Shown piece after piece: positions 1,610-20,436 of a DNA stretch of 64,000 bases (the first letter of the stretch is position 1; every line of letters begins with the position of its first letter). Below the pieces are notes generated by a model. It did no database searches. It saw only the letters and a program-made list of their open reading frames with translations, and had not been told where the DNA came from. The translations under genes and the position numbers were made by a program. The stretch lies in IMG/VR virus record IMGVR_UViG_3300044846_002555, positions 1-64,000 of that record. One strand, given 5' to 3'. The stretch is from a virus.

Positions 1610-1640
1610 AAAACCCTCACTTAACGTGGGGGTTTTTTTT
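1610..1640. terminator. Rho-independent terminator between convergent genes
   Basis: Stem aaccctcac / gtgggggtt (one T-G wobble) with loop ttaac, followed on the plus strand by eight T (1633-1640). It lies between the fibre stop (1604) and the stop of the minus-strand operon (1639). The minus-strand side has a shorter T run, so it may act in both directions. Confidence 0.85.
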
Positions 1641-2514: not shown

Positions 2515-2515
2515 A

Positions 2516-3801: not shown

Positions 3802-3813
3802 AATTAAAATTTT

Positions 3814-4632
3814 TTATACATATCCAAAATAATCATAAAACCATTTATAATGATTTTTAATGTTCATTGATATCTCATACCCCAACACTTCCATATAATC
3901 ATCCGGTTTTCTTTCAAATTTAGGTCTTAATTGATGGTCACCAAATATCCCATGTACTCTATCATCTTCATGAGTTAATTGAGATATATTCTCAAAGTCG
4001 TGTCCTTCATAATATGGAATTCCCAAATATTCATATATCCTTGTCATTTCGTCTACCGGATTATCCATTAAATCTTCATAACGAATAAATAACATTTTAT
4101 TATCAATGTTTTGTTGAATGATATCTTGTAATCTATCAATTGCAACACCAACAGGAATACCACTAGCCCAAATATCAACACGTTTATTTAAAGTTGTTCC
4201 AACTAATTGAGCCGGATTTTGAATACCATTTTCTCTATGAGGATTTTTACGGAAATTTTTTTCCATAGAAGAATAGATGGCTCTGATGTCTCTAACCATA
4301 CAAATTATTTTTGGTTCATCTTGTAACATTTCTATTAAACCATAGTTAATTCCCCACTCTCTACTTTTATCCATAACGATTGGTTTATCAGTTAATCGTT
4401 TAAAATAACCTTGCATTCCATCTTTACAAAAATCAACAAATGCTTTGGTCATTTCATCTTGGTCTTGTGCTTGAAATGCTTGTGAATGATTATAGTTATT
4501 TTTACAGGCAATTACAAAATCTACCAAACCTGATGTTGGTGTTGAATAAATTTCAGGGTTTTGTGCTAACAAATTCTGTATTAGTGTGCTTCCACTTCTT
4601 GGTAGAGATGAGTTAAAAAATATTTTCTTCAT
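3814..4632 (-). CDS. PAPS-dependent sulfotransferase
   Basis: 272 residues. The 5'-phosphosulfate loop is LPRSGSTLIQNLL (10-22). The 3'-phosphate-binding element is CMVRDIRAIYSSM (111-123), with Arg114 and Ser121/122 in the expected places. IRYEDLMDNP in the second half is also typical of carbohydrate and protein sulfotransferases. Reaction: transfer of sulfate from PAPS to a hydroxyl or amine. With the APS kinase directly downstream (12 bp), this gives the last two steps of sulfation. The acceptor is unknown; the surrounding glycosyltransferases point to a glycan. Confidence 0.85.
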   Translation of the reverse strand: MKKIFFNSSLPRSGSTLIQNLLAQNPEIYSTPTSGLVDFVIACKNNYNHSQAFQAQDQDEMTKAFVDFCKDGMQGYFKRLTDKPIVMDKSREWGINYGLIEMLQDEPKIICMVRDIRAIYSSMEKNFRKNPHRENGIQNPAQLVGTTLNKRVDIWASGIPVGVAIDRLQDIIQQNIDNKMLFIRYEDLMDNPVDEMTRIYEYLGIPYYEGHDFENISQLTHEDDRVHGIFGDHQLRPKFERKPDDYMEVLGYEISMNIKNHYKWFYDYFGYV

Positions 4633-4636
4633 TTTA

Positions 4637-5314
4637 TTAAATGTTATCTATGTATATTATTATTTCTGTGTAATGTTTTAAAAAATTATCAGACATTAAA
4701 TTCCATTTAATATTAACACCATCAATTGAGTAGACCTCAAAATTTACAAAATATTGTAGGTAAGTGTCTCTAAATTTTTTAAATTTTTCGTTTAAAATAG
4801 GTCCACCTAAATGCCATTCTCCAACAATTTTTTTAACATTGTTTTTAATAAATTCAAAATTTTCATCATTGAATATATCATATTCACCACCCTCACAATC
4901 GGTCTTTAAAAAATCTATGGTTTCTAAATTATATAATTCGCAAAGTTTTTTAAATGTAATCCCTTCCATTTGTTTTGTCCCACCATATATGTAATCACAA
5001 TCGGTATATGTATTCGTATTGGAAACACCTTTTAATATAGGTGTTACCGGATAACCAATCGTATTCTTAACTAATGTAGGAAATTCATGTTCACTTGGTT
5101 CAAGACAATATACATGTTTTGGTTTTTTAGATAAAATACTATACGTAAATGGGCCAACACTGGCACCAAAATCTAATACAATATCCCCTTCAGATACCTC
5201 AAAAAATTTTTCATATATTTTATCGATAAATGTTTCTCTGGTTATAAGTTCTTTATGAGAGAGACCTTCTTCGGTTTGCTCCATCCATCCCCAATCAAAA
5301 TCGTTTAATTTCAT
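4637..5314 (-). CDS. FkbM-family SAM methyltransferase
   Basis: 225 residues. SAM-binding motif I is DIVLDFGASVGPFTYSI with the acidic end of strand 2 in YCLEPSE. Strand 4 is FLKTDCEGGEYDIF, the DCEGxE signature of FkbM-type O-methyltransferases. A C-terminal EWHLGG matches the conserved 'E.H' region. The family methylates sugar hydroxyls, often terminating or decorating polysaccharides. The start overlaps the end of the preceding gene by 4 bp. One of three FkbM modules in the operon (also 8145-9035 and the C-terminus of 10880-13996). Confidence 0.85.
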   Translation of the reverse strand: MKLNDFDWGWMEQTEEGLSHKELITRETFIDKIYEKFFEVSEGDIVLDFGASVGPFTYSILSKKPKHVYCLEPSEHEFPTLVKNTIGYPVTPILKGVSNTNTYTDCDYIYGGTKQMEGITFKKLCELYNLETIDFLKTDCEGGEYDIFNDENFEFIKNNVKKIVGEWHLGGPILNEKFKKFRDTYLQYFVNFEVYSIDGVNIKWNLMSDNFLKHYTEIIIYIDNI

Positions 5315-6483
5315 TTTATTAAATCTTGTATTTGGTCAATAACCATTTTAGAGGTTATTGATTTATGACATTCAAATTGTTTTTTAGTTCCTTTATTTAT
5401 TGGACACCAATTCCAATCTCCTTTATCAAATGTGTATTCGGGATTGTTCCAACATCCATTACATGAGTTTTTGTTGATAATTCTGGTACAATTAATAATA
5501 AACTCATGGTCCGGTAAAGTAAAGTTTGATATCATCACAACATTTTTATTTAACGCCCATGATAACCAAGATAGTCCACTTGACAGTCCAATAAAGAAAT
5601 CACTATGGTGAATAACATTCATTGTATTTCCTAATGAATCATCTTTAAGATTCTCAACACCTTTATAGGTGTCACCATTTTTTGAAACATTAATGACTTT
5701 ATATCCTTTATCTATTAGATATTTAACTAATTCGGACCAACCTGATGGGTTATTCCATAATTTACACCCAGCAGTTGAATTAGTAGCTATTGTAATATAT
5801 TTTTCTTTATAAGGTCGTTCAATAGGTTCAAAATCAATGTGTGTTTTAATTTCTTTATGTTCCAAACCTAATATATTAGTTATGGTTTTTTGTAATGGGA
5901 TTGTTGCCGGATTTACGGGTTCTAATGAATCATTATAAAACCACCCTACTTTAAACATTGCGTGAATATTATTAACAACTTGACCAGGTTTAACGAATTG
6001 TAAATTTGGATATGATTTTTCAAATAAATGATTTAAAAATGTTGAAACAACCACTTCACAATCATGTTTCTTTCTAAACTCATCACAATAAGGAATCCAA
6101 GAGATGGTGTCACCTAATGAAGAGGATTCAAACGTTATAAAAACTTTTTTACCTTTAAATGAAATTGTCTCTTCTTTAATAATAAAAGAACCTTTAGAAA
6201 TTCTATATTTAATACCATTAAAATATTGTCTATATGTTCGACAGAACATATTGTTACTTAATTTACTTTTATATAATAAAACGTCATTATTGTCAAATAT
6301 TTCAACATCAAACTCTTCATTAGTGTTAGATTTTAAATTTAAATAAAATCCATTAACATGAGACCACTCAACACTGACATTTATTTCATCACCAAAAGAT
6401 TCAATATATTGTTTTGTAAACTCGTTGTTTGTTGGTGAGGTAACATCAAACTCACTATCATTAATTTTAATTATGTTCATCAT
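5311..6483 (-). CDS. TibC/AAH-like protein O-heptosyltransferase with Cys4 metal finger
   Basis: 390 residues. An N-terminal beta-rich domain (to ~110) precedes a GT-B domain starting at KVFITFESSSLGDTISWIPY. Family features are TNSTAGCKLWNNPSGW, HHSDFFIGLSSGLSWLSWAL and a C-terminal cysteine finger at C341, C344, C360 and C372, ending FECHKSI. This matches autotransporter heptosyltransferases (TibC, AAH, BAHT), which put heptose on Ser of adhesin repeats and hold iron in a four-Cys finger. The phage target would be a protein or a glycan; this window encodes Ser/Thr-rich repeat proteins. Start codon: MMN at 6483, in a row of tightly packed genes (gap 4 bp). Confidence 0.8.
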   Translation of the reverse strand: MMNIIKINDSEFDVTSPTNNEFTKQYIESFGDEINVSVEWSHVNGFYLNLKSNTNEEFDVEIFDNNDVLLYKSKLSNNMFCRTYRQYFNGIKYRISKGSFIIKEETISFKGKKVFITFESSSLGDTISWIPYCDEFRKKHDCEVVVSTFLNHLFEKSYPNLQFVKPGQVVNNIHAMFKVGWFYNDSLEPVNPATIPLQKTITNILGLEHKEIKTHIDFEPIERPYKEKYITIATNSTAGCKLWNNPSGWSELVKYLIDKGYKVINVSKNGDTYKGVENLKDDSLGNTMNVIHHSDFFIGLSSGLSWLSWALNKNVVMISNFTLPDHEFIINCTRIINKNSCNGCWNNPEYTFDKGDWNWCPINKGTKKQFECHKSITSKMVIDQIQDLIK

Positions 6484-6487
6484 TATA

Positions 6488-7132
6488 TTATTTTGTAAAT
6501 ATAGTTATACTATCCGTACCATCCCAATTACTTAATGGATTAAATTTTATGGTTTTTTGTTCAACAATTTTCATATTATGTTTTTCAACCAAAGATTTAA
6601 ATAAATCAGGGTTCATATCTGCTCTACCGGCAATATTTTTAAATGAATAATCATTACCTAAATATAACCATGAATGGTGAATATATGATTTACCACCGGG
6701 TTTTAAAACTCGATATATTTCTTTTAGATAATCATCAATAACGTTTTTGTGTATGTGAACAAAAGAATCGTATGAAAATACTAAATCTTGACTATCATCA
6801 CTAATTTGTGTTAAATCATTCCCATTGTTAACAAAATATTCTGACACATGGTGTCCTAATTTTTCTCTTGTTTTATTTATACAATTTTCATTTAAATCAA
6901 TAACAATTAGTTTGGATGCCAAAATTGAAAGAAATTGAGTTATTCTACCATAACCGGGAGCAATCTCTAATATTTTTTTACCTCTAAATTCTTTAATATC
7001 ATCAAAGATATAATTATTCCAAAGATTTTCTGTGGTGCCAAAAGATTTTGACCATTCATGTCCATCATTCTCCCACATTTTTTCGTCATTCCACAATCTT
7101 TGTTCGTCTATGTTTTTAAATTTTTCTTCCAT
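6488..7132 (-). CDS. Class I SAM methyltransferase
   Basis: 214 residues. Motif I is KKILEIAPGYGRITQFL, followed by LIVIDLNENCI (acidic end of strand 2), FSYDSFVHI (motif III region) and EIYRVLKPGGKSYIHHS (post-motif), all of the Methyltransf_11/25 type. The acceptor is unknown. It lies inside the glycan operon, 42 bp downstream of the next upstream gene. Small-molecule sugar methylation (O- or N-methyl on a nucleotide sugar) is a reasonable guess from context only. Confidence 0.8.
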   Translation of the reverse strand: MEEKFKNIDEQRLWNDEKMWENDGHEWSKSFGTTENLWNNYIFDDIKEFRGKKILEIAPGYGRITQFLSILASKLIVIDLNENCINKTREKLGHHVSEYFVNNGNDLTQISDDSQDLVFSYDSFVHIHKNVIDDYLKEIYRVLKPGGKSYIHHSWLYLGNDYSFKNIAGRADMNPDLFKSLVEKHNMKIVEQKTIKFNPLSNWDGTDSITIFTK

Positions 7133-7174
7133 GTTGTAATTTTAGTTGATATTTTTAAATTGTGTAATTTTAAA

Positions 7175-8143
7175 TTAATTTATTTTAGGTTGTTCTAATT
7201 CTGTTAAGTTTAATACACGAAGTAGAGTGTTACAATCATTAAATAAATCTCCCGTTAAAAAATGTATATTTTTAGTGTTATCGTATTTATCCAAATAAGT
7301 TTCTAAATTAAACATTAATGTTGGTTTTTCATACTCTAAACTTTCTTTAATTGATATTGGATTAAGTTCTAATCTTGATGTAAATAAATGTACGTCGCAA
7401 GATTGGATAAATAAATCAACATCATTTCTTTCCCCCCAAATAATACAATTATTAGGTTTATCCTCTATTATTGGTTCCCAATAATCTTTAAAGTTGCTGG
7501 CTTGATTACCAATAAAATGAAACGTTATTTCGTATCTTTCTAACATTCTCGCGATTTCAAAGGCATACCCTTGATTTTTACCCCAAGTGAATAAACCAAT
7601 ATTGATTATGTGTTTATAATTTGGGTCTAATCCTAATTTAATAATGTTATCGATTTTATTTGGTTGTTTAATCTCTATAGGATATTCAATTAAATCCATT
7701 GGTACACCCAATTCTTCAAAAACTTTCAATGAGTAAGGCGATACAAAAATGAATTTATCAGGTAAAAACCTTTTCCAATCAGGCATAGAGTGGGAACTAT
7801 GTGTGGTTTCAAATATTTTATAAGTCCTATTTTTATCATATAACCGTTCCATAATTTCAGTTGACATAAATGTTTCTGAAAATTCTTCAATCATAATGTG
7901 TGGTGAATCATGGTTATCAATTAGTTCAAACAATTCCGTTTCTTTATCTTCATTCAATGTTATAAATTTATCCCCAATCATGTTTATAACATTATTTCTT
8001 TGAACAATATAATTCCACGCAACACATTCCCATTCTACAACTATTACGTTATAAACATCTTTAAGTAGTTCAACTTTTTTAGATACCACTTGAGGGCATC
8101 CACCTGTTGACATATGTGGTGTAATTATTAATAATGTTTTCAT
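7175..8143 (-). CDS. Glycosyltransferase, GT4-like
   Basis: 322 residues, GT-B fold. The N-terminus MKTLLIITPHMSTGGCPQVV is the typical GT4 glycine-rich start. The C-terminal domain holds KHIINIGLFTWGKNQGYAFEIAR, and then DVHLFTSRLELNPISIKESLEYEKP, an E-x7-E-like donor-binding segment (ELNPISIKE). No signal peptide. It probably extends a glycan chain. Neighbours are an FkbM methyltransferase (1 bp upstream) and a SAM methyltransferase (42 bp downstream). Confidence 0.75.
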   Translation of the reverse strand: MKTLLIITPHMSTGGCPQVVSKKVELLKDVYNVIVVEWECVAWNYIVQRNNVINMIGDKFITLNEDKETELFELIDNHDSPHIMIEEFSETFMSTEIMERLYDKNRTYKIFETTHSSHSMPDWKRFLPDKFIFVSPYSLKVFEELGVPMDLIEYPIEIKQPNKIDNIIKLGLDPNYKHIINIGLFTWGKNQGYAFEIARMLERYEITFHFIGNQASNFKDYWEPIIEDKPNNCIIWGERNDVDLFIQSCDVHLFTSRLELNPISIKESLEYEKPTLMFNLETYLDKYDNTKNIHFLTGDLFNDCNTLLRVLNLTELEQPKIN

Positions 8144-8144
8144 T

Positions 8145-9035
8145 TTATTCTAAAAAGGAGAATGAATTCCAAAAATCGTATTTGACTTTATAACCATTCA
8201 TTTTTAACCAATCAAAAAGTTTATCAATCCTTTCACTACTACCTGTTCTTTCTTCACAAAAATTTATAGTTTCAAAAACGATTAATTTTGGTTTGACGAC
8301 TTTACTAAAATCTAATGACATTATAATTTCGTCATCAATAGCTTCAGTGTCTAAATGTAACCAATCTAAAGTATCTTGTAAATTTTCTTGTATAATTAAA
8401 TCATTAATACTTATTGAATCCACATTAACAACAACAATTTCTTCATTATCAAATACGTGTTTTTTACAATGAGTTTCACTTAATGTGTTTGTATAACCAT
8501 CTCCGAATTCATAAAAGTTAACATTACCACCATTACCGGTTATAACATTGTTTCTAAATGAAACATTATTAAAATTTGAATAATTTTGTGTTAATTCATC
8601 AAATTGTTTTTTGGATGCCTCAACTAAAACTGCGTAAGTTGAGTTATTTTTTACGTGTTTAACCCATTCTCCGGATGTACCATCATGAGTGCCTATTGCA
8701 ATACCTTTTGTATTTGGATTTTTTTTAATCCACGTCTCAAAAAATTGTTCAGTGGCATTTCGATTAACCCAAACATCGTATTTAAATTCGGATATAATTT
8801 CATCATGTTTATTTTTAATTACCACAACAAAATTATCGTTATTAACTGTATCCCAAGATGCCCACATATTGGGATAAAGATTCGTTGACCAAATAATTTT
8901 ACCACCACCTGAAACTTCAAATATAAAAGGAAGTTCATTTTCATTATATAACCAAGAGACCTCTTCGTAAACTTTACCCAAAACTTTTCCATTTGGTGCT
9001 TCCTCACTTTTTTCAATATATTTAAGTTCAAACAT
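8145..9035 (-). CDS. FkbM-family methyltransferase with N-terminal beta domain
   Basis: 296 residues. Residues 1-~85 form a beta-rich domain (KYIEKSEEAPNGKVLGKVY, SWLYNENELPFIFEVSGGGK) that resembles the non-catalytic beta domains seen before the GT-B domain in 5311-6483 and before the FkbM part of 10880-13996. The methyltransferase follows: KGIAIGTHDGTSGEW (motif I), YAVLVEASKKQFDELT, and DWLHLDTEAIDDEIIMSL with the DxEaiD signature of FkbM. Probably methylates a sugar. It is 1 bp from the downstream GT4 gene and 2 bp from the upstream GT34-like gene. Confidence 0.75.
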   Translation of the reverse strand: MFELKYIEKSEEAPNGKVLGKVYEEVSWLYNENELPFIFEVSGGGKIIWSTNLYPNMWASWDTVNNDNFVVVIKNKHDEIISEFKYDVWVNRNATEQFFETWIKKNPNTKGIAIGTHDGTSGEWVKHVKNNSTYAVLVEASKKQFDELTQNYSNFNNVSFRNNVITGNGGNVNFYEFGDGYTNTLSETHCKKHVFDNEEIVVVNVDSISINDLIIQENLQDTLDWLHLDTEAIDDEIIMSLDFSKVVKPKLIVFETINFCEERTGSSERIDKLFDWLKMNGYKVKYDFWNSFSFLE

Positions 9036-9037
9036 TA

Positions 9038-9724
9038 TTATAATACTTTTTTAATTCTATTTAATTTACTTGGTGTGTCACCACCCGCGTGATACACATA
9101 ATTTATTATACCGTCTTCCCAATATCTATGATAAGAAAATGGTAATACCCTAATATTACCTAATAATAAAGGATATTCAATATCAACAGTATTTTTATTT
9201 AAAATGTTTTCACCACCATTAATTTTAAAATTATCATAAATTAATTCATCTAATCTTGATTGTTCATGAAAAAATTCAAATTTAAATTGTTTTGGGGAGT
9301 CCCATAAAGTGTTTAAAATATTGTTTGACCATTCACTATTTTTCCATATCATAAATCCGGTTGTTGTGTGGGTCCACATATTACCACTAACTCTGTCTAC
9401 CTCAAGTTTAGGGATAACTAAATCAACATCATCAGTTATCATATCTTCAATTTTAATATTTTGATTAACAAATACTGCGTCAGCATCTATCCACACAACA
9501 TAATCAAATAATGGTAAATACTTTTTAAGTACGTCTATCTTTATCCAAGTTGGGTGCCAATCAGAATAATCATCGTTTTTAACTATTTCCTTAATATATG
9601 AGTATCCGTGTTTATTGGAATATTCATGATGATTTATTGAAGATAAATCTCCATAATCACATTTTCCATAGTTTTCCCATCTAATGTGGTCAGTGTACGA
9701 TGTTAAAATACATATTTTACTCAT
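9038..9724 (-). CDS. GT34-like galactosyl/xylosyltransferase (GMA12/MNN10 type)
   Basis: 228 residues, GT-A fold. The N-terminus KICILTSYTDHIRWENYG leads into NHHEYSNKHGYSYI and then WHPTWIKIDVLKKYLPLFDYVVWIDADAVF. The WIDADA segment holds the metal-binding DxD, and the run 'H..Y...HGY.y....W.K...l...l..ydyv.W.D.DA' is the pattern of the GMA12/MNN10 family. The later TGFMIWKNSEWS is the conserved acceptor-side segment. Predicted to transfer a hexose or pentose from a nucleotide sugar. Packed between the GT2 and FkbM genes. Confidence 0.8.
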   Translation of the reverse strand: MSKICILTSYTDHIRWENYGKCDYGDLSSINHHEYSNKHGYSYIKEIVKNDDYSDWHPTWIKIDVLKKYLPLFDYVVWIDADAVFVNQNIKIEDMITDDVDLVIPKLEVDRVSGNMWTHTTTGFMIWKNSEWSNNILNTLWDSPKQFKFEFFHEQSRLDELIYDNFKINGGENILNKNTVDIEYPLLLGNIRVLPFSYHRYWEDGIINYVYHAGGDTPSKLNRIKKVL

Positions 9725-9725
9725 A

Positions 9726-10877
9726 TTAATTTTTGATTATAAAATGTCTGATATATGTCCACCAACTAAATCCATAGTAACGACTTATAACTGGTGTATA
9801 TTTGTTTAATTGTTTTTCTAATTCTTCATCTTTATCTTCATTAGATAAATGATAATTTTGGTTTTGATAATAAAATAAAACTTTACCACCTTTAATTTTT
9901 TGAAGTATTTTTTCTAAAACATTTTCGTTAAGATTATTAAGTGAAAATAAGTGGATATCCGATTCAGGATTATTAAATGTTAGTGTAACATCATAATATA
10001 ATTTCTGTAAAACTTCCTGTTGACCTTTAGATATATTTCTAGACCATAATGATACGTTTTTATTTTGTAATTCTCCAATAGGGTAGGACCCTAAAGTAGA
10101 GGTTTCAATATACAATTCATTAAATCTACTATCAATACCACCGTCACTTAAATTTAATTTATTTAATGCAATATCAAAATTTGCGTTAAAATTATGTGGG
10201 ACAATTTTTCTGTGGGATTCGGAATCTTCTCGTAAATACCACTTATATAAAGGTCTTGGTATATGCAGATATTTCCCAAATGAATTTGACCAAAATACGT
10301 GATAACTATCTTCAGCACCCGCCAACACATCTGTTAATTCAAACTTATCTATGATATTTTTAAACGCCCTTAAATGACCAAAACAACTATAACTTATATT
10401 ATTTAGATAATCACATGATGGGTGATAATTATTAATTTTGTTAGAGATTATATCATTATTTAAGATATATGAGATTGAATGTAATGAACCACTATCTTCA
10501 TATAATTTAAAGTAATCTGACGACACTAAAGACACATCATTGTTGTTTTCTAAAAATGAGTTATAAACATTTAAAAAGTTTTTATCAAAATCATCATCAG
10601 CATCGACTAAAACAATCCAATCAAAAGTTTTATCAAAAAATTCTTGAGGATTCCAATACATTTGTTTTTTTTCAGATTGTTCATAATATTTTATTTTATG
10701 TTTTAAAATACTATTTTCTAATCGGTTTAAGACTATGTCTTTAGTGTTGTCACTTGAAAAATCGTCAGTAATGTGCCATTCAAAATTATCATAATCTATT
10801 TGTTCGATAGAATTAAATATTCTATCAACAAATCTTTCACAATTATAAAAGGTGGTGTATATTCCAAATTTTAACAT
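9726..10877 (-). CDS. GT2-family glycosyltransferase
   Basis: 383 residues. The N-terminal GT-A domain has KFGIYTTFYNCERFVDRIFNSI, then WHITDDFSSDNTKDIV and DWIVLVDADDDFDKNFL; VDADDD carries the DxD metal motif of GT2. The C-terminal ~150 residues (from about NISKGQQEVLQKLYY) are not recognised and end in a basic, aromatic tail. It uses a nucleotide sugar and adds it to a glycan acceptor; donor and acceptor unknown. It is 2 bp from the genes on either side or less. Confidence 0.8.
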   Translation of the reverse strand: MLKFGIYTTFYNCERFVDRIFNSIEQIDYDNFEWHITDDFSSDNTKDIVLNRLENSILKHKIKYYEQSEKKQMYWNPQEFFDKTFDWIVLVDADDDFDKNFLNVYNSFLENNNDVSLVSSDYFKLYEDSGSLHSISYILNNDIISNKINNYHPSCDYLNNISYSCFGHLRAFKNIIDKFELTDVLAGAEDSYHVFWSNSFGKYLHIPRPLYKWYLREDSESHRKIVPHNFNANFDIALNKLNLSDGGIDSRFNELYIETSTLGSYPIGELQNKNVSLWSRNISKGQQEVLQKLYYDVTLTFNNPESDIHLFSLNNLNENVLEKILQKIKGGKVLFYYQNQNYHLSNEDKDEELEKQLNKYTPVISRYYGFSWWTYIRHFIIKN

Positions 10878-10879
10878 AA

Positions 10880-13800
10880 CTAATTTAAATTTTTAGCAAA
10901 AATCATATTATCTTTAATTTTAACATCAAAATTGTTTTTTAATAAAACACTAACCACTAACTCTAATATTTCTTCACTATGTGTCTCAATACAATATCGT
11001 TTTATTTTTTTTAAATTTTTAGACGTTATTGTTTTAAAAATATCGTATTCAGAACCTTCACAATCTATTTTGCAATAATTAATTGTGTCATCAATTTCAT
11101 TGATAAGGGTATTAATATTAATGGATTCAACAATAATTTCATCACCGGTGTTATTAAGTAAATCATTATAAGTTGACACACAATTTCTTGCGGAAACATC
11201 ATCACATAATGTCATTGTAATTTCACCATCTTCAACACTAACTGCTTTATTAATTGGTGTTATTGGAAATTCTTTAGATAATTCTAAAATATGATTAAAT
11301 GGTTTTTTTAATGGTTCAACACAATATGTTTTTTTAGCTCCTTTATCCAGTGAGTAAAGAGAGAAAAATCCATAATTACCACCAATGTCTAAAACAACAT
11401 CATCTTTTTGAACATTAAATTCATCATCATATTCATAATCTTTATTTATGAATATCTCCCAATAAGTTGAATAATTATTATCTTCTAAATTTTCAAATTT
11501 ATATTCTTTATCACCTATTGTTAGTTTGTTATCCCCATTGATAATCATTTTTTTATAACCAAAAAATTCACCATCTAAATATAGGTTTATAATAATATTA
11601 CCTAAACCGTTTAAACGACCCGGACTTGGTGCCCACCAATTTATTCCGTTATAGTTTCTTTTCGCAACATCAAAAAAGTTGTCTCTTTTTAAACCTGTGT
11701 TAACATCAATCACCTCCATTTTTATTGGGAGTTCCGTGTCAACTTTATAATTAAAGTGTATTTTATTTAAATCGTCTTTTTTAAACAATTCAACAATGGT
11801 GTCAAATTTATTAACATTTTCCGAGTTCAAAACTTTACTAATGTTTTCTTTAACCCGGTCAACAGATGGATGACACTCAAAAGTTGATTTCTTCTCTAAA
11901 CACCCTGGCATTGGTGGAACGGCATTAATGTGTCCCCACTCTTTAACATTATACGATAAATTTGAATTACAAAATATATTACAAGTTCCTCCAACATATG
12001 TATAGTTATATTCTTGAGTCCCATATCTATATGGTGCTCTAAATGATGGATGTATCGCGCTACCTAATTGTAATATATGGGTATTCGTACATCCTGCTAA
12101 ATGTAAAGGCCCGGAATCCATTGTTACAATACATTTAGAGTTATTAATTACCCACCACATATCACTCATCGTCCCTTGATTGGTTAAATCTAAACCATAA
12201 AGATTTTCAAAAACAGGACAGTATTTTTCTAATGTATCACCTAACGAATGATGTAATTTTTCTCTATAACCTGACCCTATTAAAACAGTATAAATTTTGT
12301 TTTCACGAAGCCAATCAATTAATTCTGTCCAATTTTTATCATTCCAAGTTCTGTTCGCCCAATTTGTTGTTACGTGTAATACAACATACTCTTTAGGTAA
12401 GTCAATATCTAATTCTAATGATGTTGGATAAAAATCATAACTCAATTGTTCTGGTAAAAGTTGGAATCCTAAATCATTAGCGTGTAATTGACGAGTATCA
12501 ATATGTGAGAATTTTTTCTCAATACCATTCTTATCAAAAGTTCCGGGAAACGTAAAACTTTCATATATTCTTGAGTTTGATGTATCAATTAAATTGTATT
12601 CGTCAAATGAAAGTAAATTATCAACATAAGGGTTTCCTCTAAATACAACTTTACTATGTGTCACAACATTGATTTTTTCATTATGTGATTGAGAAAGATA
12701 TCGTAAAGTTGGTGTTGACGCTAACGTATCTCCAAAACTACTACTGTGAATTAAATAATATATGTTTGACATTGTAATTGATTTTTTTTTAGTATTATAA
12801 CTTTCTAAAATTTTATTTGCTTTCTCAGTAACATAGTCCCAATTAAAATTTTTCTGAATATATTGTGAATCTAATAATGATTTATTGTTATATTCTGAGA
12901 GTTTATTTAATTTATATTGTGTATAAAATTTCATAACTTCATACTCAAATTGAGTATAATTTGGTTCTGATAATTTACCAGGGTAATAGTCATGTAGTAA
13001 CTCCCAAAAATATTCTTGGTTGTTTATTATTAATTTTCTTTGAGCGTCTTCTTCTCCTACAATCTCAATACCAATACCTATTGAGTTTTCAGTATATTCT
13101 AATTGACCTGTTGATTTACTGTAAATGGATGGCACACCTGAAGATAATGATTGAATTAACGGAAGATTCCAACCCTCACCGCGTGAACAAGAAACATATA
13201 AATTTGCATTTCTAATTTCATTAATATAATCCTCTTCACTTAATGTATCCAAAAATGTGATGTTATTATATTGAGGTAAACCATATTTTGTAAACAATTC
13301 ATCTTGTGATTCCTGTTCTCGATATTTGTCATGTATTGCTAATTTAAATTCAACTGAGGGGTCATCACCAATTACATTAGTAATTGACTTTATTAATTCG
13401 TAAGATGATTTACGATATTCCCAAGTACCAATATGTAGTATTGTTAGTTTTTTATTTTTTTTATTTTTAACGGGAAAAAATTTGGATGGGTCAACACCCT
13501 CATTAACAACAGTTATTTTATTTCTATCTATTCCATTATTAACAAAAACCTCTAATTGCCATTTACTTGGAACCCATATATAATCAACTTTTTTAAGTTT
13601 TTCAATAAAACCTTCTAACATTTCTGTAGTTTCCCAAGGGAAGTAAGCAATAACTGGTTTATCGTAATCTTGATAATAATAATGATGATACGCTTCGGCC
13701 ATTATAAGGTGAAAATCGGGAACAAATGATTCGTCATATCCTAATAGTGGAAATTCTTTTAACTCACCATCTACCCATAAACTTTGTTGATGTAATAATT

Positions 13801-13996
13801 GATGGTGAATATCCTCTAAACCTTTAGTGTTTTTATACATATCAGGACCACTATAAAAACCATTCCAAGTATTAGTATCTAAATTGAAGTTTCTTATCTT
13901 AACATTATGGTATTTGTTTAGATTTTTACTAAATTCTTTAATATGATGTGCAATACCACCAGGTCCCATCATTGAGCCGTGAATTAATATATTCAT
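10880..13996 (-). CDS. Three-domain fusion: GT4 + TibC-like GT + FkbM methyltransferase
   Basis: 1038 residues. Domain 1 (1-~400) is GT4: PGGIAHHIKEF near the start, ILHIGTWEYRKS, and SRGEGWNLPLIQSLSSG (E274 of E-x7-E). Domain 2 (~409-745) starts at an internal Met409 (MSNIYYLIHSSSFGDTLAS) and is TibC/GT9-like: HVTTNWANRTWNDKNW, VTMDSGPLHLAGC, and a cysteine finger at C672, C676, C699 and C708 ending FECHPS. Domain 3 (~850-1038) is FkbM: VVLDIGGNYGFFSLYS, YCVEPLK and YCKIDCEGSEYDIF, preceded by a beta domain. The protein could add two sugars and a terminal methyl group in one polypeptide. Met409 could also be an internal translation start. Confidence 0.85.
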   Translation of the reverse strand: MNILIHGSMMGPGGIAHHIKEFSKNLNKYHNVKIRNFNLDTNTWNGFYSGPDMYKNTKGLEDIHHQLLHQQSLWVDGELKEFPLLGYDESFVPDFHLIMAEAYHHYYYQDYDKPVIAYFPWETTEMLEGFIEKLKKVDYIWVPSKWQLEVFVNNGIDRNKITVVNEGVDPSKFFPVKNKKNKKLTILHIGTWEYRKSSYELIKSITNVIGDDPSVEFKLAIHDKYREQESQDELFTKYGLPQYNNITFLDTLSEEDYINEIRNANLYVSCSRGEGWNLPLIQSLSSGVPSIYSKSTGQLEYTENSIGIGIEIVGEEDAQRKLIINNQEYFWELLHDYYPGKLSEPNYTQFEYEVMKFYTQYKLNKLSEYNNKSLLDSQYIQKNFNWDYVTEKANKILESYNTKKKSITMSNIYYLIHSSSFGDTLASTPTLRYLSQSHNEKINVVTHSKVVFRGNPYVDNLLSFDEYNLIDTSNSRIYESFTFPGTFDKNGIEKKFSHIDTRQLHANDLGFQLLPEQLSYDFYPTSLELDIDLPKEYVVLHVTTNWANRTWNDKNWTELIDWLRENKIYTVLIGSGYREKLHHSLGDTLEKYCPVFENLYGLDLTNQGTMSDMWWVINNSKCIVTMDSGPLHLAGCTNTHILQLGSAIHPSFRAPYRYGTQEYNYTYVGGTCNIFCNSNLSYNVKEWGHINAVPPMPGCLEKKSTFECHPSVDRVKENISKVLNSENVNKFDTIVELFKKDDLNKIHFNYKVDTELPIKMEVIDVNTGLKRDNFFDVAKRNYNGINWWAPSPGRLNGLGNIIINLYLDGEFFGYKKMIINGDNKLTIGDKEYKFENLEDNNYSTYWEIFINKDYEYDDEFNVQKDDVVLDIGGNYGFFSLYSLDKGAKKTYCVEPLKKPFNHILELSKEFPITPINKAVSVEDGEITMTLCDDVSARNCVSTYNDLLNNTGDEIIVESININTLINEIDDTINYCKIDCEGSEYDIFKTITSKNLKKIKRYCIETHSEEILELVVSVLLKNNFDVKIKDNMIFAKNLN

Positions 13997-14000
13997 AAAA

Positions 14001-14561
14001 TTATTTTTTAATTACCCAACTTGAATCAGGGTATCTCGTAATTGAATGTGTTTTACCAAAATAGTCATTTACTGCATATAAAACATCAATATTCTCTAAA
14101 TAATCATGACCGGATAAATAACCACCTTTTTTAATTTTTGGTAACCACGTATTAATATCGTTTATTACATCATCATACCAATGAGACGCATCAATATAAA
14201 CAAGGTCAAAATGTTCATCAGGAAACATTTTAGAGGCCTCATCACCCCTCATATGTATTTTATTAATGTGAGAATAAAATGATTTCATATTATCAAACAA
14301 TTCCATAGCTTGGAAAATAATACCATCATTATTCCAATCTTCCCAAGTATCGATGCAGTATATTTTTTCACAATGTAATGCTAAAACTTCACTACTAACA
14401 CCGGCATACGAACCAATTTCAGCAACAACAAAATTATCTTTCATAATATCTTCACACATCATGAACAAACCTTGAGTCCTATTAACACCACCTTCATCAT
14501 CTTTTAAACCAAACATTCTATAGGCCGTTTTTAAATATTCTCGTCTATTATCAATATTCAT
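14001..14561 (-). CDS. Class I SAM methyltransferase (first gene of the glycan operon)
   Basis: 186 residues. FVVAEIGSYAGVSSEVLALH is motif I, IYCIDTWEDW the end of strand 2, FDLVYIDASHWYDDVINDI the motif IV region (Methyltransf_24 type, DASHxYxxV), and KKGGYLSGHDY the post-motif. Similar enzymes include sugar O-methyltransferases such as macrocin-type and CmcI-like. It is the 5'-most gene of the 14-gene minus-strand operon, and its promoter must lie in the 108 bp gap to 14670. It is 4 bp from the next gene. Confidence 0.8.
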   Translation of the reverse strand: MNIDNRREYLKTAYRMFGLKDDEGGVNRTQGLFMMCEDIMKDNFVVAEIGSYAGVSSEVLALHCEKIYCIDTWEDWNNDGIIFQAMELFDNMKSFYSHINKIHMRGDEASKMFPDEHFDLVYIDASHWYDDVINDINTWLPKIKKGGYLSGHDYLENIDVLYAVNDYFGKTHSITRYPDSSWVIKK

Positions 14562-14669: not shown

Positions 14670-15560
14670 ATGCAAGTAGTTGAAATAACAAGTTTATCAG
14701 GACATTCACCATTTAATATCTCAATATGTGATATTACCTTAACTTATTGTTATGTGGTTGCAACCGGTGTTGTTGTTGTCCCCCCAACATTAGAATTACA
14801 AATACCTACTCAATTAGAAGGTGCTCAACAAGTTATAGTTAAAGTTGTGGATTCAATTGGTTGTCAAGAATTAATTTTACAAAGTTGTCCAACAACCCCA
14901 ACTCCAACACCTACAATAACCCCAACTCCAACACCTACAAAAATTGTGGTTTGTAATTGTCTTACATTTGAAAATACAACATCGAATACATTATATTTTT
15001 ATTTTACTCAATGTGATGACACAATATTAAAAGGTGAAATACAATCGGGAACTACATTATATTATTGTGGTAGATTACCATCAGCGGATGTTGGTATTAA
15101 TGTGAATATAGGTAATTTGTGTGTTAACAATACGTGTCCTGATTCGGCATTAACCCCTACCCCTACAACAACACCAACAACAACACCAAACCTGACATCG
15201 ACATCTACGCCAACCCCAACACCGACCCCAACTCACACTCCAACAGCAACATCGACAACAACACCGACACCAACACCAACACATACTCCAACGGCAACAT
15301 CAACAACAACCCCAACTCCAACACCTACATCTGCGGGATTAGTTTTAGAGTTATACGGTTGTTGTGATTTGACAACACAATACGTTGCATATAATCCAAT
15401 ATTCGCATCATTACCAGGGGTATATACCGCAACAAATGGTGAACCTTATGAAGTGGTAACAGGTGTTGCGATTAGTGGAGCTCCTACGGTTACCATTGTT
15501 GATATAACAAATTATAGTAATTGTACTAATTGGGTGACAGTTTTTGGTAGTTGTCCGTAA
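14670..15560 (+). CDS. Mucin-like Thr/Pro-rich protein, probably virion or surface exposed
   Basis: 296 residues: three small Cys-containing beta domains (about 1-73, 91-159, 222-296) joined by Thr/Pro linkers at 74-90 and 160-221. The second linker contains the unit PTPTPTHTPTATSTTT twice. No signal peptide or membrane segment, so if it reaches a surface it probably does so on the virion. Such linkers are typical O-glycosylation substrates. A GT60-type transferase, a family known to modify hydroxyPro/Thr in Pro/Thr-rich proteins, follows 65 bp downstream. No homolog recognised. Confidence 0.65.
   Translation: MQVVEITSLSGHSPFNISICDITLTYCYVVATGVVVVPPTLELQIPTQLEGAQQVIVKVVDSIGCQELILQSCPTTPTPTPTITPTPTPTKIVVCNCLTFENTTSNTLYFYFTQCDDTILKGEIQSGTTLYYCGRLPSADVGINVNIGNLCVNNTCPDSALTPTPTTTPTTTPNLTSTSTPTPTPTPTHTPTATSTTTPTPTPTHTPTATSTTTPTPTPTSAGLVLELYGCCDLTTQYVAYNPIFASLPGVYTATNGEPYEVVTGVAISGAPTVTIVDITNYSNCTNWVTVFGSCP
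14889..15332 (+). repeat. Low-complexity Thr/Pro coding tracts
   Basis: Two tracts, 14889-14939 and 15147-15332, of ACN/CCN codons (accccaactccaacacct type). Synonymous codons vary, which argues for selection on the protein repeat and against recent slippage. Non-repetitive coding sequence separates the two tracts. Confidence 0.85.
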
Positions 15561-15574
15561 TAATTAACCATTAA

Positions 15575-15582
15575 TATTTATC
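15575..15582 (+). promoter_or_regulatory. TATTTATC promoter-like motif before the GT60 gene
   Basis: TATTTATC in the 65 bp gap, 43 nt before the ATG at 15626. Same motif class as at other transcription-unit starts in this window. Confidence 0.35.
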
Positions 15583-15625
15583 TTTTATTTTGAACTATTA
15601 TCTTTTGTGTAAAAACAAGAGATAA

Positions 15626-16873
15626 ATGAAAATATTTGTACAGATAGCTTCCTATCGTGACCCCCAACTTATCCCAACATTAGATAGTATGTTGGAAAAT
15701 GCTAAAAGACCTAAAAACTTAAGAATAGGTATATGTCGTCAATATCACCCTGAAGACGGGTTTGATAATTTAGAAAAATTTAGTGGAGATAAAAGATTTA
15801 GAGTTAAGGATGTTTTATATTCTGACGCTAAAGGTGTTTGTTGGGCAAGAAATCAAGTACAACAATTATATGATGGTGAGGAATATACTCTTCAAATAGA
15901 TTCTCATATGAGATTTGAAAAGGATTGGGATGATACCTTAATCAAAATGGTTAAACAACTTCAGAAGAAAGGATTTAAGAAACCTTTATTGACGGGGTAT
16001 GTTTCTTCATTCGACCCGGATAATGACCCGGCAGGTAGAGTTAAAGAACCGTGGAGAATGTCTTTCGATAGGTTTATCCCTGAAGGTGCGGTATTCTTCT
16101 TACCTGAAACAATTCCTGGTTGGGAAAAACTTAAACAACCAATTACTTCTCGTTTTTATTCTGCACATATGGCTTTCACTCTTGGAGAGTTCAGTGTTGA
16201 GGTTCAACACGACCCTGAATTTTATTTTCACGGGGAAGAAATATCTATTGCCGTTAGAGCATTTACTCACGGATATGATTTATTCCACCCACACAAAACT
16301 GTTATTTGGCATGAGTATACTCGTAAGGGTAGAACCAAACAATGGGATGATGACAAAGAGTGGGGTAAAAAGAATGAATTGTCTCACAAAAAGAATAGAC
16401 AACTTTTTGGAATGGATGGTGAGGAAGTTACTTTGGATTTTAGTAAGTACGGATTTGGAACTGAAAGAACTTTAAAAGATTATGAGATTTATTCTGGTCT
16501 TAAATTTTCAAATAGAGCTGTCCAACAATATACATTAGATAAAAAGTATCCACCAAATCCTACCGTTTATGAAACTGAAGAAGAATGGTTGGCAAGTTTT
16601 GCAAGAGTATTTAAACATTGTATAGATATCTCATTTAAACAAGTTCCGGAAAAAGATTATGATTTTTGGGTTGTTGCTTTCCACGATGAGAAAGATGAAA
16701 CTCTTTATCGTAAAGATGCGGATATTAATGAAATAAATAATATGATGAAAGACCCTGACGGATACTGTAAAATTTGGAGAGATTTTCAAACAACCTCTAA
16801 ACCAAAATATTGGGTGGTGTGGCCTTATAGTAAATCAAAAGGTTGGTGTGATAGATTAACCGGTAACTTGTAA
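15626..16873 (+). CDS. GT60-like GlcNAc transferase (Skp1 / mucin-type O-glycosylation)
   Basis: 415 residues. The N-terminus FVQIASYRDPQLIPTLDSML, then LRIGICRQYHPEDG, KGVCWARNQVQQLYDGEEYTLQIDSHMRF and WDDTLI is the pattern of the GlcNAc family PF11397/GT60, with DSH (92-94) in the DxD position. Relatives in Dictyostelium and other protists attach GlcNAc to hydroxyproline of Skp1 or to Thr in mucin-type proteins. Later features: FHGEEISIAVRAFTHGYDLFHPH and IWHEYTR. Cytoplasmic, no signal. It follows the Thr/Pro-rich protein gene and precedes two more transferases (gaps of 3 and 1 bp). The C-terminal ~100 residues are not recognised. Confidence 0.8.
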   Translation: MKIFVQIASYRDPQLIPTLDSMLENAKRPKNLRIGICRQYHPEDGFDNLEKFSGDKRFRVKDVLYSDAKGVCWARNQVQQLYDGEEYTLQIDSHMRFEKDWDDTLIKMVKQLQKKGFKKPLLTGYVSSFDPDNDPAGRVKEPWRMSFDRFIPEGAVFFLPETIPGWEKLKQPITSRFYSAHMAFTLGEFSVEVQHDPEFYFHGEEISIAVRAFTHGYDLFHPHKTVIWHEYTRKGRTKQWDDDKEWGKKNELSHKKNRQLFGMDGEEVTLDFSKYGFGTERTLKDYEIYSGLKFSNRAVQQYTLDKKYPPNPTVYETEEEWLASFARVFKHCIDISFKQVPEKDYDFWVVAFHDEKDETLYRKDADINEINNMMKDPDGYCKIWRDFQTTSKPKYWVVWPYSKSKGWCDRLTGNL

Positions 16874-16876
16874 TAT

Positions 16877-17866
16877 ATGAGATTTATTATTAGGCATCAG
16901 TTAAGAGACCTTAAAATGGGGGGTCACGAGTTTTATGTGACTAGTTTATTTAAAAAATTTATAAATTCAATAAAATTAAAATATCCGGAACACACTTTTG
17001 ATGTGGAAGTCGACCAATCTTATGAGAAATATGGTCAAGGGAGTATTTTTAGTTGTATGAGTTTATCGATTATTAATCCTGAAAATAATAATTATATTTT
17101 AATATCATTATTCGATAATTGGAAATATCATTTTATGAGGCATCTTGGTTGGGAACCAAAAAAAATGAAACAATTTTTTTATGCTGGTGGATTTAATTTT
17201 TTAGATTATTTTAACTATAAAAAAATATCATCGTTAAATCCTGATTTAGAATTCCCGGATGATATACAAAGTGTTTTTAACACTTTTTTTTATAACCCTT
17301 ATTTTGATTGTTGTTACGATGAAATGGAATCAATCTATAACACTAAAAATAATAGAGAACAAAAACTTTATTTTAGGGGGTGGATGTGGGATTTTAGAAA
17401 ACAAATGACCGAAAATATTAATCGAGACGATATTTTAATTATTGATAAAAACCAAAACAATCAAAATTTAAATTATGTTGATTACTTAAAAGACATGGCG
17501 AATTATTCGGTTAGTTTAAGTTTACCGGGTGGAACAGAATCTTGTAATAGAGACATAGAATGTTTTGGTATTGGTGTTCCTGTTATTAGACCTTATTTAC
17601 AAATAAATTATCCTGAACCATTAATACCAAACTACCATTACATTAATTGTTATCACTATTGTGATTATACGGATAACGGAAACCCAAAATATTTGTCATA
17701 CGAAGATTTTCAAAAAAATTTAATATACACTTGGGAGAAAGTTAAAAATAACCAAGAGTATTTAGATTTTATATCTAAAAATGCCCGAGAATGGTTTGTT
17801 AAAAACTGTCAACCTGAAAATAATATAGAATTATTTTTAAATAAAATTGATTTAAATTTATTATAA
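16877..17866 (+). CDS. Putative glycosyltransferase, exostosin/CAP10-like
   Basis: 329 residues. No clear single family. The segment KLYFRGWMWDFRKQM followed by YLKDMANYSVSLSLPGGTESCNRDIECFGIGVPVIRP resembles the C-terminal donor-binding region of exostosin (GT47) and CAP10 (GT90) enzymes: 'FRG...R', then 'y..sl.lpG...s.R..E....G.pvi'. A C-terminal QKNLIYTWEKVKNNQEYLDFISKNAREWF helix follows. It lies 3 bp after the GT60 gene and 1 bp before the next, clearly the same operon. An alternative is a distant GT4 enzyme. Confidence 0.6.
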   Translation: MRFIIRHQLRDLKMGGHEFYVTSLFKKFINSIKLKYPEHTFDVEVDQSYEKYGQGSIFSCMSLSIINPENNNYILISLFDNWKYHFMRHLGWEPKKMKQFFYAGGFNFLDYFNYKKISSLNPDLEFPDDIQSVFNTFFYNPYFDCCYDEMESIYNTKNNREQKLYFRGWMWDFRKQMTENINRDDILIIDKNQNNQNLNYVDYLKDMANYSVSLSLPGGTESCNRDIECFGIGVPVIRPYLQINYPEPLIPNYHYINCYHYCDYTDNGNPKYLSYEDFQKNLIYTWEKVKNNQEYLDFISKNAREWFVKNCQPENNIELFLNKIDLNLL

Positions 17867-17867
17867 T

Positions 17868-19544
17868 ATGAGTGTAACATTAGTGACCGGTTTATGGAAT
17901 ATAGGGAGAGGTGACCTTCAAGAAGGGTGGTCTCGTTCATTCCAATATTATTTAGAAAAATTTGAACAATTGTTACATGTTAATGAGAATATGATTATTT
18001 TTGGTGATAAAGAATTAGAAAAATTTGTTTTTAAATATAGACGTGTTGAAAACACTCAATTTATTCATAGAGAGTTATCTTGGTTTAAAGATAATGAATT
18101 TTACACTAAAATACAATCAATTAGAACTAACCCCGAATGGTTTAATCAGGTTGGGTGGTTATCTGATTCAACTCAAGCCAAATTAGAAATGTATAATCCT
18201 TTAGTGATGTCTAAAGTGTTTTTACTTCACGACGCCAAACTATTAGATAAGTTTAATTCCGAATATATGTTTTGGGTTGATGCCGGAATAACAAACACAA
18301 TTCATCCGGGATATTTTACTCACGACAAAGTTTTAAACAAAATACCTAAATTAGTAAATAATTTTCATTTTGTATGTTTCCCTTATGAAACAAATAGTGA
18401 AATACACGGATTCAAATATGATGTTTTATGTAATATTGCGGGAAACAAAGTTAATAAAGTTGCTCGAGCCGGTTTTTTTGGTGGTAAAAAAAATGTAATA
18501 TCAGAAATAAATTCAATATATTATGGATTGATGAATGATACTTTATCTAAAGGTTTTATGGGTACGGAAGAATCATTATTTACCATAATGACTTATCAAT
18601 ACCCAAATTTAATAACTTATTCAGAAATAGATGGTAATGGTTTGATGGGTAAATTTTTTGAGGATTTAAAAAATGATAATGTTATTGTTAAATCTGAAAG
18701 TTCTAAAAATGTAATAATAAATAATAATATGGATATCACTAACGTTGCTCTTTATGTAATAACATTTAATTCCCCAAAACAATTTGAGGTTTTAATCCAA
18801 ACTATGTTAGAATATGATAAAGATTTTATAGATAAACCGGCAAAATACTTATTGAACAATTCAACTGATTTATCAACAACTGAACGTTATGTTGAATTAT
18901 GTTTACAATATGGTTTTGAACATATCAAAAAAGACAATATTGGTATTGTTGGAGGTAGAGTTTTTGTTGCGGAACATTTTGATAAAACAAATCACGATTG
19001 TTATTTTTGGTTTGAAGATGATATGGCATTTTATCCAAGAAAAAATAAAATGTGTAAAAATGGTTTTAATAGATGGACTGAAAATTTATATCAAAAATCA
19101 TTAGAGATTCTTAAAAAAGAAAATTTTGATTTTTTAAAACTTAACTACACTGAATTTTTTGGTGATAATAGTACTCAATGGAGTTGGTATAATGTTCCCC
19201 AAGATTTTAGACAAAGACATTGGCCTGATAATCCAAGATTACCTGAACAAGGATTAAATCCGAATTCTCCAAAGACAGTTTTTAAAAATATTAAATCACA
19301 TAATGGTTTACCATATGTCACAGGTGAAATTTATTTATGTAATTGGCCAATACTTTTAAGTAGAGAAGGTAACTATAAATGTTATTTAGAAACTAAATGG
19401 GCTCACCCTTTTGAACAAACTTTAATGTCTCATTGTTATCAAGAAACTGTAATGGGTAATATTAATCCCGGGTTATTGTTATTAACACCAACTGAACACA
19501 ATAGATTTGACCATTATGATGGTTCGTTAAGAAAAGAAAGTTAA
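17868..19544 (+). CDS. Two-domain protein: HtrL/YibB-like + GT2/GT-A-like transferase
   Basis: 558 residues. Residues 1-~270 match HtrL/YibB/WlaTC: TLVTGLWNIGRGDLQEGWSRSF, then YNPLVMSKVFLLHDAK, EYMFWVDAGITNT (metal-type DAG) and RAGFFGGKK. That family is found in LPS loci and is a presumed glycosyltransferase. After an Asn-rich linker (~275-285) a second domain starts at ALYVITFNSPKQFEVLIQTML, with AKYLLNNSTD and CYFWFEDDMAFYPR; EDDM is the likely metal site of a GT-A enzyme. HSHCYQE-type C-terminal elements were not assigned. The fusion suggests two sequential sugar additions. It is 1 bp after the previous gene. Confidence 0.7.
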   Translation: MSVTLVTGLWNIGRGDLQEGWSRSFQYYLEKFEQLLHVNENMIIFGDKELEKFVFKYRRVENTQFIHRELSWFKDNEFYTKIQSIRTNPEWFNQVGWLSDSTQAKLEMYNPLVMSKVFLLHDAKLLDKFNSEYMFWVDAGITNTIHPGYFTHDKVLNKIPKLVNNFHFVCFPYETNSEIHGFKYDVLCNIAGNKVNKVARAGFFGGKKNVISEINSIYYGLMNDTLSKGFMGTEESLFTIMTYQYPNLITYSEIDGNGLMGKFFEDLKNDNVIVKSESSKNVIINNNMDITNVALYVITFNSPKQFEVLIQTMLEYDKDFIDKPAKYLLNNSTDLSTTERYVELCLQYGFEHIKKDNIGIVGGRVFVAEHFDKTNHDCYFWFEDDMAFYPRKNKMCKNGFNRWTENLYQKSLEILKKENFDFLKLNYTEFFGDNSTQWSWYNVPQDFRQRHWPDNPRLPEQGLNPNSPKTVFKNIKSHNGLPYVTGEIYLCNWPILLSREGNYKCYLETKWAHPFEQTLMSHCYQETVMGNINPGLLLLTPTEHNRFDHYDGSLRKES

Positions 19545-19568
19545 TTTGTTTATTTTTGGAAAGCAAAG

Positions 19569-19576
19569 TATTTATA
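19569..19576 (+). promoter_or_regulatory. TATTTATA promoter-like motif
   Basis: TATTTATAAATA starts at 19569; the core ends 14 nt before the ATG at 19591. One of the best-placed members of the recurrent set. Confidence 0.5.
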
Positions 19577-19590
19577 AATAAAAACAATAG

Positions 19591-20436
19591 ATGGATTTTT
19601 TTATAAAGAAAAACGCAACCTTACCGGTACTAAAGTTACAAGTGGTTAAAGACGGAAGAAGTGACTATAATAAGTTTATGGATATGATTGAAGAATCGGC
19701 CATTTTCTTCTCAATGGTTGACGTAGAAACCGGTATTCCAAAAATAAGTTCAAGACCTGCAGGGTTTGTTGAAAAAACTTTTGTTGACTTGAATGCTGGT
19801 CCTGAATATTACATATATTATCAGTTTACACCAAGAGATACTAATAGAGTTGGTCGATACGCCGGTCAATTTATGTTAAGAAATTCCGATGGTGTCCTTA
19901 TATTACCAATACGTGAAGAATTATTTATAAATGTTCAAGATTCATTTATTGCTGATGATTTAGTTTATGATAGTTGTTACGTGTCAGAATTCCCTTGTTG
20001 TATCAATGGACCATATACTACAACAACAACTACAGAATGTTGTCCTTGTACTACAACTACTACTACAATTAATCATACTACAACCACGACAACAACAGTT
20101 CCTGTATTATCCGAAGTTAATATGGGTTCAGGTATTTATGACGATATTGGTCATTTATTTATTGATTTTATTGCCGATAGTCCTCAACTAATTAAATGTA
20201 TTGTTGAAGATTATGTATTGGCACCTCCGTTTTATATAATTGGTGGTGAGAACTATTATATGTATACCCCATTACAAATAGGTGGAACAATTTATAGTGA
20301 CCCTAATGGACAAACAATATCATTGATTAATGATGGTAGTTATGTCACTCAAGTAAACGGATATCAAGTAATCACCGTTTTTAATTCTGTAATTACCGGA
20401 ATTGTTAATTTTAACAATTTACTTCCATGTCATTAA
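19591..20436 (+). CDS. Probable virion protein with poly-Thr linker
   Basis: 281 residues. The N-terminal domain (1-~140) begins FFIKKNATLPVLKLQVVKDG and reads like a beta-sandwich virion domain (ESAIFFSMVDVETGIPKISS, YYIYYQFTPRDTNRVGRYAGQF). Then come two CC/PCC clusters and poly-Thr runs at 143-148, 154-159 and 163-169 (20017-20100), and a C-terminal beta domain (~172-281). The architecture is like 14670-15560 and like the insertion in the tail sheath: globular domain, Cys, Thr tract, globular domain. It has its own TATTTATA motif. Function unknown; structural or adhesive role inferred. Confidence 0.6.
   Translation: MDFFIKKNATLPVLKLQVVKDGRSDYNKFMDMIEESAIFFSMVDVETGIPKISSRPAGFVEKTFVDLNAGPEYYIYYQFTPRDTNRVGRYAGQFMLRNSDGVLILPIREELFINVQDSFIADDLVYDSCYVSEFPCCINGPYTTTTTTECCPCTTTTTTINHTTTTTTTVPVLSEVNMGSGIYDDIGHLFIDFIADSPQLIKCIVEDYVLAPPFYIIGGENYYMYTPLQIGGTIYSDPNGQTISLINDGSYVTQVNGYQVITVFNSVITGIVNFNNLLPCH

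Follow-up and report, generated by a model that had tools for sequence, protein, structure and literature searches.

A 64,000-nucleotide stretch of viral DNA, positions 1 to 64,000 of the IMG/VR record IMGVR_UViG_3300044846_002555 and referred to here as the window, probably encodes a cytoplasmic mucin-type O-glycosylation system in which a phage glycosyltransferase of family GT60 would modify threonine (Thr)-rich tracts of the phage's own proteins. The full record is 142,859 bases long, and its sheath, tube, baseplate and DNA polymerase genes mark it as a tailed phage with a contractile tail. The locus at 14670-20436 consists of five plus-strand genes in the order T1, GT60, G2, G3 and T2, followed by the DNA polymerase gene. 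T1 is a Thr/proline (Pro) stalk protein, T2 ends in a Thr tract, and a further tract lies in the tail sheath. Adjoining stalk and GT60 genes are found in a widespread group of large aquatic phages, which probably sugar-coat parts of their particles.

The gene at 15626-16873 (plus strand), encoding 415 residues, is on sequence evidence a member of the GT60/PF11397 family and a predicted polypeptide O-glycosyltransferase. The preliminary description of this DNA had called it GT60-like and proposed a hidden Markov model search, which gave PF11397 with E=5.6e-71 and a score of 240 bits (cut-off 21) in two stretches covering profile positions 2-43 and 97-350 of 352; the match was recovered again in the genome search, and the phrog_24687 family "glycosyltransferase" matched with E=4e-168. 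Residues D92-S93-H94 are invariant across 44 aligned homologues, down to 29% identity, and replacement of the DxD motif by DxH is a variation of GT27 and GT60, two families that share O-glycosylation of polypeptide serine (Ser) and Thr (PMC7185993). The AlphaFold model of the protein has a mean predicted local distance difference test score (pLDDT) of 93.1. Its 45 best PDB fold matches are all polypeptide N-acetylgalactosaminyltransferases (ppGalNAc-transferases; E 4e-11 to 9e-9, 10-15% identity), and the predicted fold is for this reason a GT-A fold close to GT27. In animals, ppGalNAc-transferases initiate mucin glycosylation. A PDB sequence search with the GT60 protein found no structure of a GT60 enzyme; a sequence match to T7 RNA polymerase (E=0.006) was weak and biologically senseless and was superseded by the fold search.

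The predicted main acceptor, T1 (14670-15560, plus strand, 296 residues), is 23% Thr and contains two Thr/Pro tracts, at 14889-14939 and 15147-15332. The tract of T2 (19591-20436, plus strand) is a poly-Thr tail at 20017-20100 behind a conserved 138-residue N-terminal domain, and the tail sheath (31560-34886, plus strand, 1108 residues; phrog_23 E=6e-55, PF17482) carries the sequence TTTTSTSTTTTTTDPCTTTTSTSTTSTTT at 32421-32510; both of these poly-Thr tracts contain little Pro. All four tracts lie where they had been described, and each of the three proteins exceeds the range of shuffled sequence, with up to 27 Thr, Ser or Pro per 30 residues in T1, 21 in T2 and 27 in the sheath; the window's 20,662 encoded residues, shuffled 200 times, gave at most 17. 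Chance composition was ruled out on this difference between 27 and 17, and the DNA pattern for TPTPTPT used in our record scans, ACNCCNACNCCNACNCCNACN, gave few matches when reversed. The Thr/Ser/Pro density is mucin-like. Among relatives, tract segments reach 989 residues, T1 homologues occur in 53 of 80 GT60 loci, and stalk proteins immediately upstream of GT60 reach 3214 residues. Two stalk proteins of more than 3000 residues (L060:303-9947 and L424:850-10101) alternate Thr/Pro stretches with small cysteine-containing modules like beads on a string, and these modules match only phrog_15511, whose function is not known, and, weakly, a tail fibre family.

The association of enzyme and tracts extends well beyond the window. 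Close GT60 relatives are encoded by 412 IMG/VR stretches, and a Thr-tract gene lies within the fetched stretch in 76 of the 80 loci kept. In the window's own lineage, lineage A, the tract gene is directly upstream of GT60 for 37 of 54 distinct GT60 proteins versus 63 of 589 at other ranks (p=1e-20; each distinct protein counted once, ranks within eight genes), and G3, T2 and the DNA polymerase are common flanking genes. Lineage B is separated by a long, supported branch, and its GT60 is about 40% identical to that of the window. It was retrieved by its own GT60 sequence, from a seed (L152) picked by tract pattern whose relatives were not so picked. Tract genes occur in 44 of the 60 loci, all 44 among the 56 that belong to the lineage, and here the tract gene mostly lies one or two genes downstream (27 of 86 versus 26 of 524 elsewhere, p=1e-11); around three lineage-B GT60 genes (L411-L413) no match to G3, T2 or the polymerase was found. 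Since the p-values ignore locus relatedness and the near ranks were chosen after viewing the data, the recurrence of two arrangements outweighs them. Inheritance within one clade as the sole cause of co-occurrence is weakened by lineage B, with its stalk genes on the other side. The only GT60 relative in GTDB genomes (L085, 72% identity) sits with an adjoining G3 on contig CALJOK010000014.1 of a Saprospiraceae metagenome-assembled genome, a Bacteroidota contig that may be phage and may hint at the host.

The co-occurrence of GT60 with Thr-tract genes that had been proposed as a check in related phages thus recurs in two lineages with different gene order, and tracts are present in nearly every GT60-positive record of 90 kb or more. 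All 13 GT60-positive records selected for their size or because they are isolates had the TPTPTPT pattern, among them Xanthomonas phage XacN1 and Stenotrophomonas phages RAS14 and CM1. The pattern was found in none of ten GT60-negative jumbo phages (RaK2, 121Q, GAP32, CBB, Munch, SCTP-2, Phosso, XbC2, XaC1 and Vibrio 2.275) and was likewise missing from 33 IMG/VR records sampled with arbitrary words of 15 or 17 bases; both sets of controls lack GT60. Among records of at least 90 kb, tracts occur in 23 of 24 that are GT60-positive versus none of 18 controls (p=5e-11), a figure that is biased because seven lineage-B records were chosen already known to carry tracts; counted instead over every lineage-B record of 90 kb or more, tracts occur in 13 of 14. 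All lineage-A records of this size among the close relatives carry tracts. In this clade GT60 counts as a core gene: every record of at least 90 kb that shares the window's DNA polymerase has it, and these records accordingly include no tract-bearing relative without the transferase. When contigs were selected by the pattern itself, 10 of 30 confirmed Thr-tract contigs were GT60-positive, 6 of 7 at 90 kb or more and 4 of 23 below that size; ten others, nine GT60-negative and one GT60-positive, were set aside as having no Thr-tract open reading frame (ORF) above threshold. In one GT60-negative record (G029), large Thr/Pro stalk proteins adjoin an ORF at L494:14886-15866 that may resemble plant hydroxyproline O-arabinosyltransferases. 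A Pfam scan of this ORF gave no match, and it is a possible candidate for an alternative stalk transferase.

What is conserved within the tracts bears on the acceptor. Across 132 distinct tract proteins with 26,127 tract residues, Thr stands at every second residue, with a probability of 0.88 of finding Thr two positions after a Thr and 0.065 one position after it (0.43 when shuffled). The Thr phase of the alternating blocks in lineage A is 89.7% Thr, 4.0% Ser and less than 0.4% alanine (Ala), the selection of blocks on Thr content inflating the Thr figure and leaving the contrast of Ser to Ala unaffected. The other phase is 42% Pro, the rest being asparagine, glutamine, leucine, valine, isoleucine and charged residues. 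A change from Thr to Ala is a transition and one from Thr to Ser (ACN to TCN) is a transversion. The Thr/Ser hydroxyl is thus preferentially retained while Pro drifts, as expected if the hydroxyl is modified. Tandem Repeats Finder resolved the window tract into imperfect 6- and 48-base repeats, so tract copy number shifts by duplication. A nucleotide-repeat artefact was rejected as the full explanation, since Thr codons are used alike within the tracts and beyond them and the Thr phase is kept while the alternate residue drifts; duplication does add length.

The preliminary description had also proposed a glycan coat on the virion. Of the tract proteins, the sheath is an established virion component and T2 a tentative one; for the others we infer a virion location. 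The sheath of 24 of 64 distinct relatives has the tract, at one site that in full-length members spans residues ~285-300, and relatives with sheath C-termini at least 84% identical can be without it. Among these close relatives (L505-L584) the tract is gained or lost at this single site like a replaceable surface loop. T2 has 125 homologous ORFs of 125-1906 residues, the longer ones mostly tract-bearing, with tails ranging from none to about 1770 residues. Its N-terminal domain is a possible baseplate anchor: the model (pLDDT 83) has weak fold matches to the phage NF5 baseplate (E=2e-3) and to a phage injection device (4v96, E=7e-3), and the BppU_N profile matched one of 40 family members weakly (E=0.087). 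In phage XacN1, ORF325 (3313 residues) has Thr/Pro tracts near its C-terminus and comes after the baseplate wedge genes ORF323 and ORF324, and one 3214-residue stalk protein has a weak tail-fibre match.

To our knowledge, virion protein glycosylation in phages is known from few examples, mainly mycobacteriophages. In Che8 and its relatives (Freeman et al. 2023, as cited in PMC11256854 and PMC12619734) phage-encoded transferases are likewise tied to sugars on virion proteins; those proteins are capsid and tail tube subunits, however, and the citing passages report no Thr stalks or GT60. XacN1 resembles the window phage in having the same GT60 gene (ORF334), Thr/Pro tracts (ORF325) and at least two glycoproteins detected by proteomic analysis (PMC5852040), and differs in its cassette, with a carbamoyl transferase beside GT60. 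Its authors name the transferases and not the mucin link or acceptor of the family, and threonine and proline are not mentioned in the main text (PMC5852040). Outside phages, the Trypanosoma cruzi GT60 enzyme TcOGNT1 makes N-acetylglucosamine (GlcNAc)-alpha-Thr on mucins (PMC9472816), a system alike in enzyme family, Thr-rich acceptors and, as proposed here, surface exposure, but one with a eukaryotic Golgi enzyme and membrane-anchored mucins where the phage would have a cytoplasmic enzyme and phage proteins. The animal ppGalNAc-transferases of GT27 share the DxH motif and dense Thr/Ser/Pro acceptor regions and provide the best fold matches, yet they belong to another CAZy family, are 10-15% identical and use an N-acetylgalactosamine donor. 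Moraphages, which are large (200-307 kb), mostly from freshwater and equipped with contractile-tail genes and four core transferase groups, may overlap the window's lineage; the study describing them mentions no Thr/Pro tracts and treats the transferase role in general terms (PMC12619734). A literature search that left out most subscription journals and all bioRxiv preprints yielded no paper in which PF11397 and phage are both named.

In the mechanism we propose, GT60 would transfer a sugar, most likely GlcNAc from host uridine diphosphate-GlcNAc, to the hydroxyls of Thr and some Ser in the (Thr-X)n and poly-Thr tracts that the phage itself encodes. G3, a conserved second transferase, would add the next sugar, and hypervariable transferases, methyltransferases and a sulfotransferase would extend and cap the glycan phage by phage. 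The glycosylated tracts would then project from tail and baseplate as extended stalks or brushes, varying the particle surface. The system had been described as self-contained, which is right in part: the phage would have to draw the nucleotide sugar from its host, and no family could be assigned to one supposed transferase. This is G2 (16877-17866, plus strand, 329 residues), which scores above threshold with no Pfam, PHROG or NCBIfam family, varies between phages and is present in 11 of 80 GT60 loci. Of the two additional transferase genes once listed, G3 (17868-19544, plus strand) is the one with support: its N-terminal half is HtrL_YibB-like (PF09612, E=1.9e-16; TIGR02192, E=1e-17), its second half, which has no family assignment, looks GT-A-like by eye, and it was found in 74 of 80 loci.

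To the left, on the minus strand at 1639-14561, lies a variable decoration cassette of proposed extension and capping enzymes, assigned by family matches to GT9, GT4, GT2, GT34-like, methyltransferase, adenosine phosphosulfate (APS) kinase, nucleotidyltransferase and sulfotransferase genes. Of the 37 lineage-A loci with good flanks, 35 have G3, all have T2 and 27 have T1, whereas G2 and each left-cassette gene appear in 1 to 12. A conserved core beside a variable cassette is the pattern expected of fixed initiation with variable extension and capping, in the step order suggested above. At 2964-4632 (minus strand), three genes adjoin, one for APS kinase (PF01583), one for a nucleotidyltransferase that weakly matches ATP-sulfurylase and one for a sulfotransferase; they recur in 7-8 of 80 related loci, and their predicted functions suggest that the phage may be able to make 3'-phosphoadenosine 5'-phosphosulfate and sulfate a glycan. 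Three more tract proteins are encoded in the same record beyond the window, at 76599-79601, 80243-82732 and 93334-94245.

That GT60 acts on the neighbouring Thr/Pro proteins, as had been suggested, is supported by adjacency, presence and absence, fold, Thr retention and the XacN1 glycoproteins. Several observations pull the other way. The fold matches have moderate TM-scores (0.43-0.53, by query length), and the main text of the XacN1 study does not say which proteins are the glycoproteins (PMC5852040). As a core gene of its clade, GT60 co-occurs with tracts there in a way that is confounded by descent, and one lineage-B record of 97 kb (G116) and several GT60-positive fragments show no TP pattern. 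Unrelated, mostly smaller phages or fragments bear Thr/Pro stalks without GT60, among them 20 of the 30 confirmed pattern-selected contigs, so a tract alone does not demand the enzyme. These GT60-negative stalks show a pattern like that of lineage A (89.7% Thr, 4.9% Ser), and in lineage B the contrast is weaker, with 78.7% Thr, 3.1% Ser and 2.1% Ala.

Such stalks, together with the tandem 6- and 48-base repeats in the tract and the large decoration cassette next door, would suit tracts that are unmodified spacers spread by repeat expansion, with GT60 acting elsewhere, for instance on phage DNA or on surface glycans of the host, and placed nearby through clustering of decoration genes. We consider this unlikely. 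A spacer has no need to keep Thr where Pro drifts or to favour Ser above Ala at the Thr positions, GT60 has stalk neighbours on opposite sides in two lineages, and its fold is that of a protein O-glycosyltransferase and not of a DNA transferase. Glycosylation of the tracts by GT60 would also be compatible with non-virion proteins whose role is to cover or alter the infected cell, perhaps as a defence against superinfection, and T1 has no assigned structural domain that would speak for a place in the particle. There is little to recommend this reading when the tract-bearing sheath is a virion protein, the T2 anchor weakly resembles baseplate proteins, ORF325 of XacN1 follows the wedge genes, and one of the longest stalks weakly matches a tail fibre.

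The preliminary description had left the acceptor as hydroxyproline or Thr. Hydroxyproline-modifying GT60 enzymes do exist, as in the modification of Dictyostelium Skp1, and the tracts are Pro-rich, but we judge such an acceptor very improbable here. It is disfavoured because no prolyl-hydroxylase-type gene (PF13640) was found in 12 GT60-positive records, a search that did not extend to other oxygenase families or host enzymes; moreover, Pro varies where Thr is kept, and the poly-Thr tracts of sheath and T2 are Pro-poor. Thr is the likely acceptor, and modification of the phage's own Thr tracts by GT60 is the reading we retain.

We lean, if only slightly, towards a broader picture in which two deep phage lineages carry a dedicated viral mucin system. 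GT60 would be an initiating transferase specific to phage-encoded (Thr-X)n stalks, which can reach about 3000 residues and offer Thr acceptors by the hundred. It would be joined by the second transferase in lineage A and by a fast-changing cassette for extension, methylation and sulfation that would give each phage its own coat, while related stalks in phages lacking GT60 would depend on different polypeptide transferases that have yet to be recognised. Modification of the tracts also suggests an acceptor for the XacN1 glycoproteins, and the idea can therefore be tested now in a cultured phage. If it is correct, the system would be a simple cytoplasmic one of mucin type, possibly expressible in Escherichia coli, and would bear on the origin of the eukaryotic GT60 enzymes. 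With GT60 and dedicated Thr stalks paired in hundreds of environmental contigs, self-glycosylation would then be a common trait of large aquatic phages.

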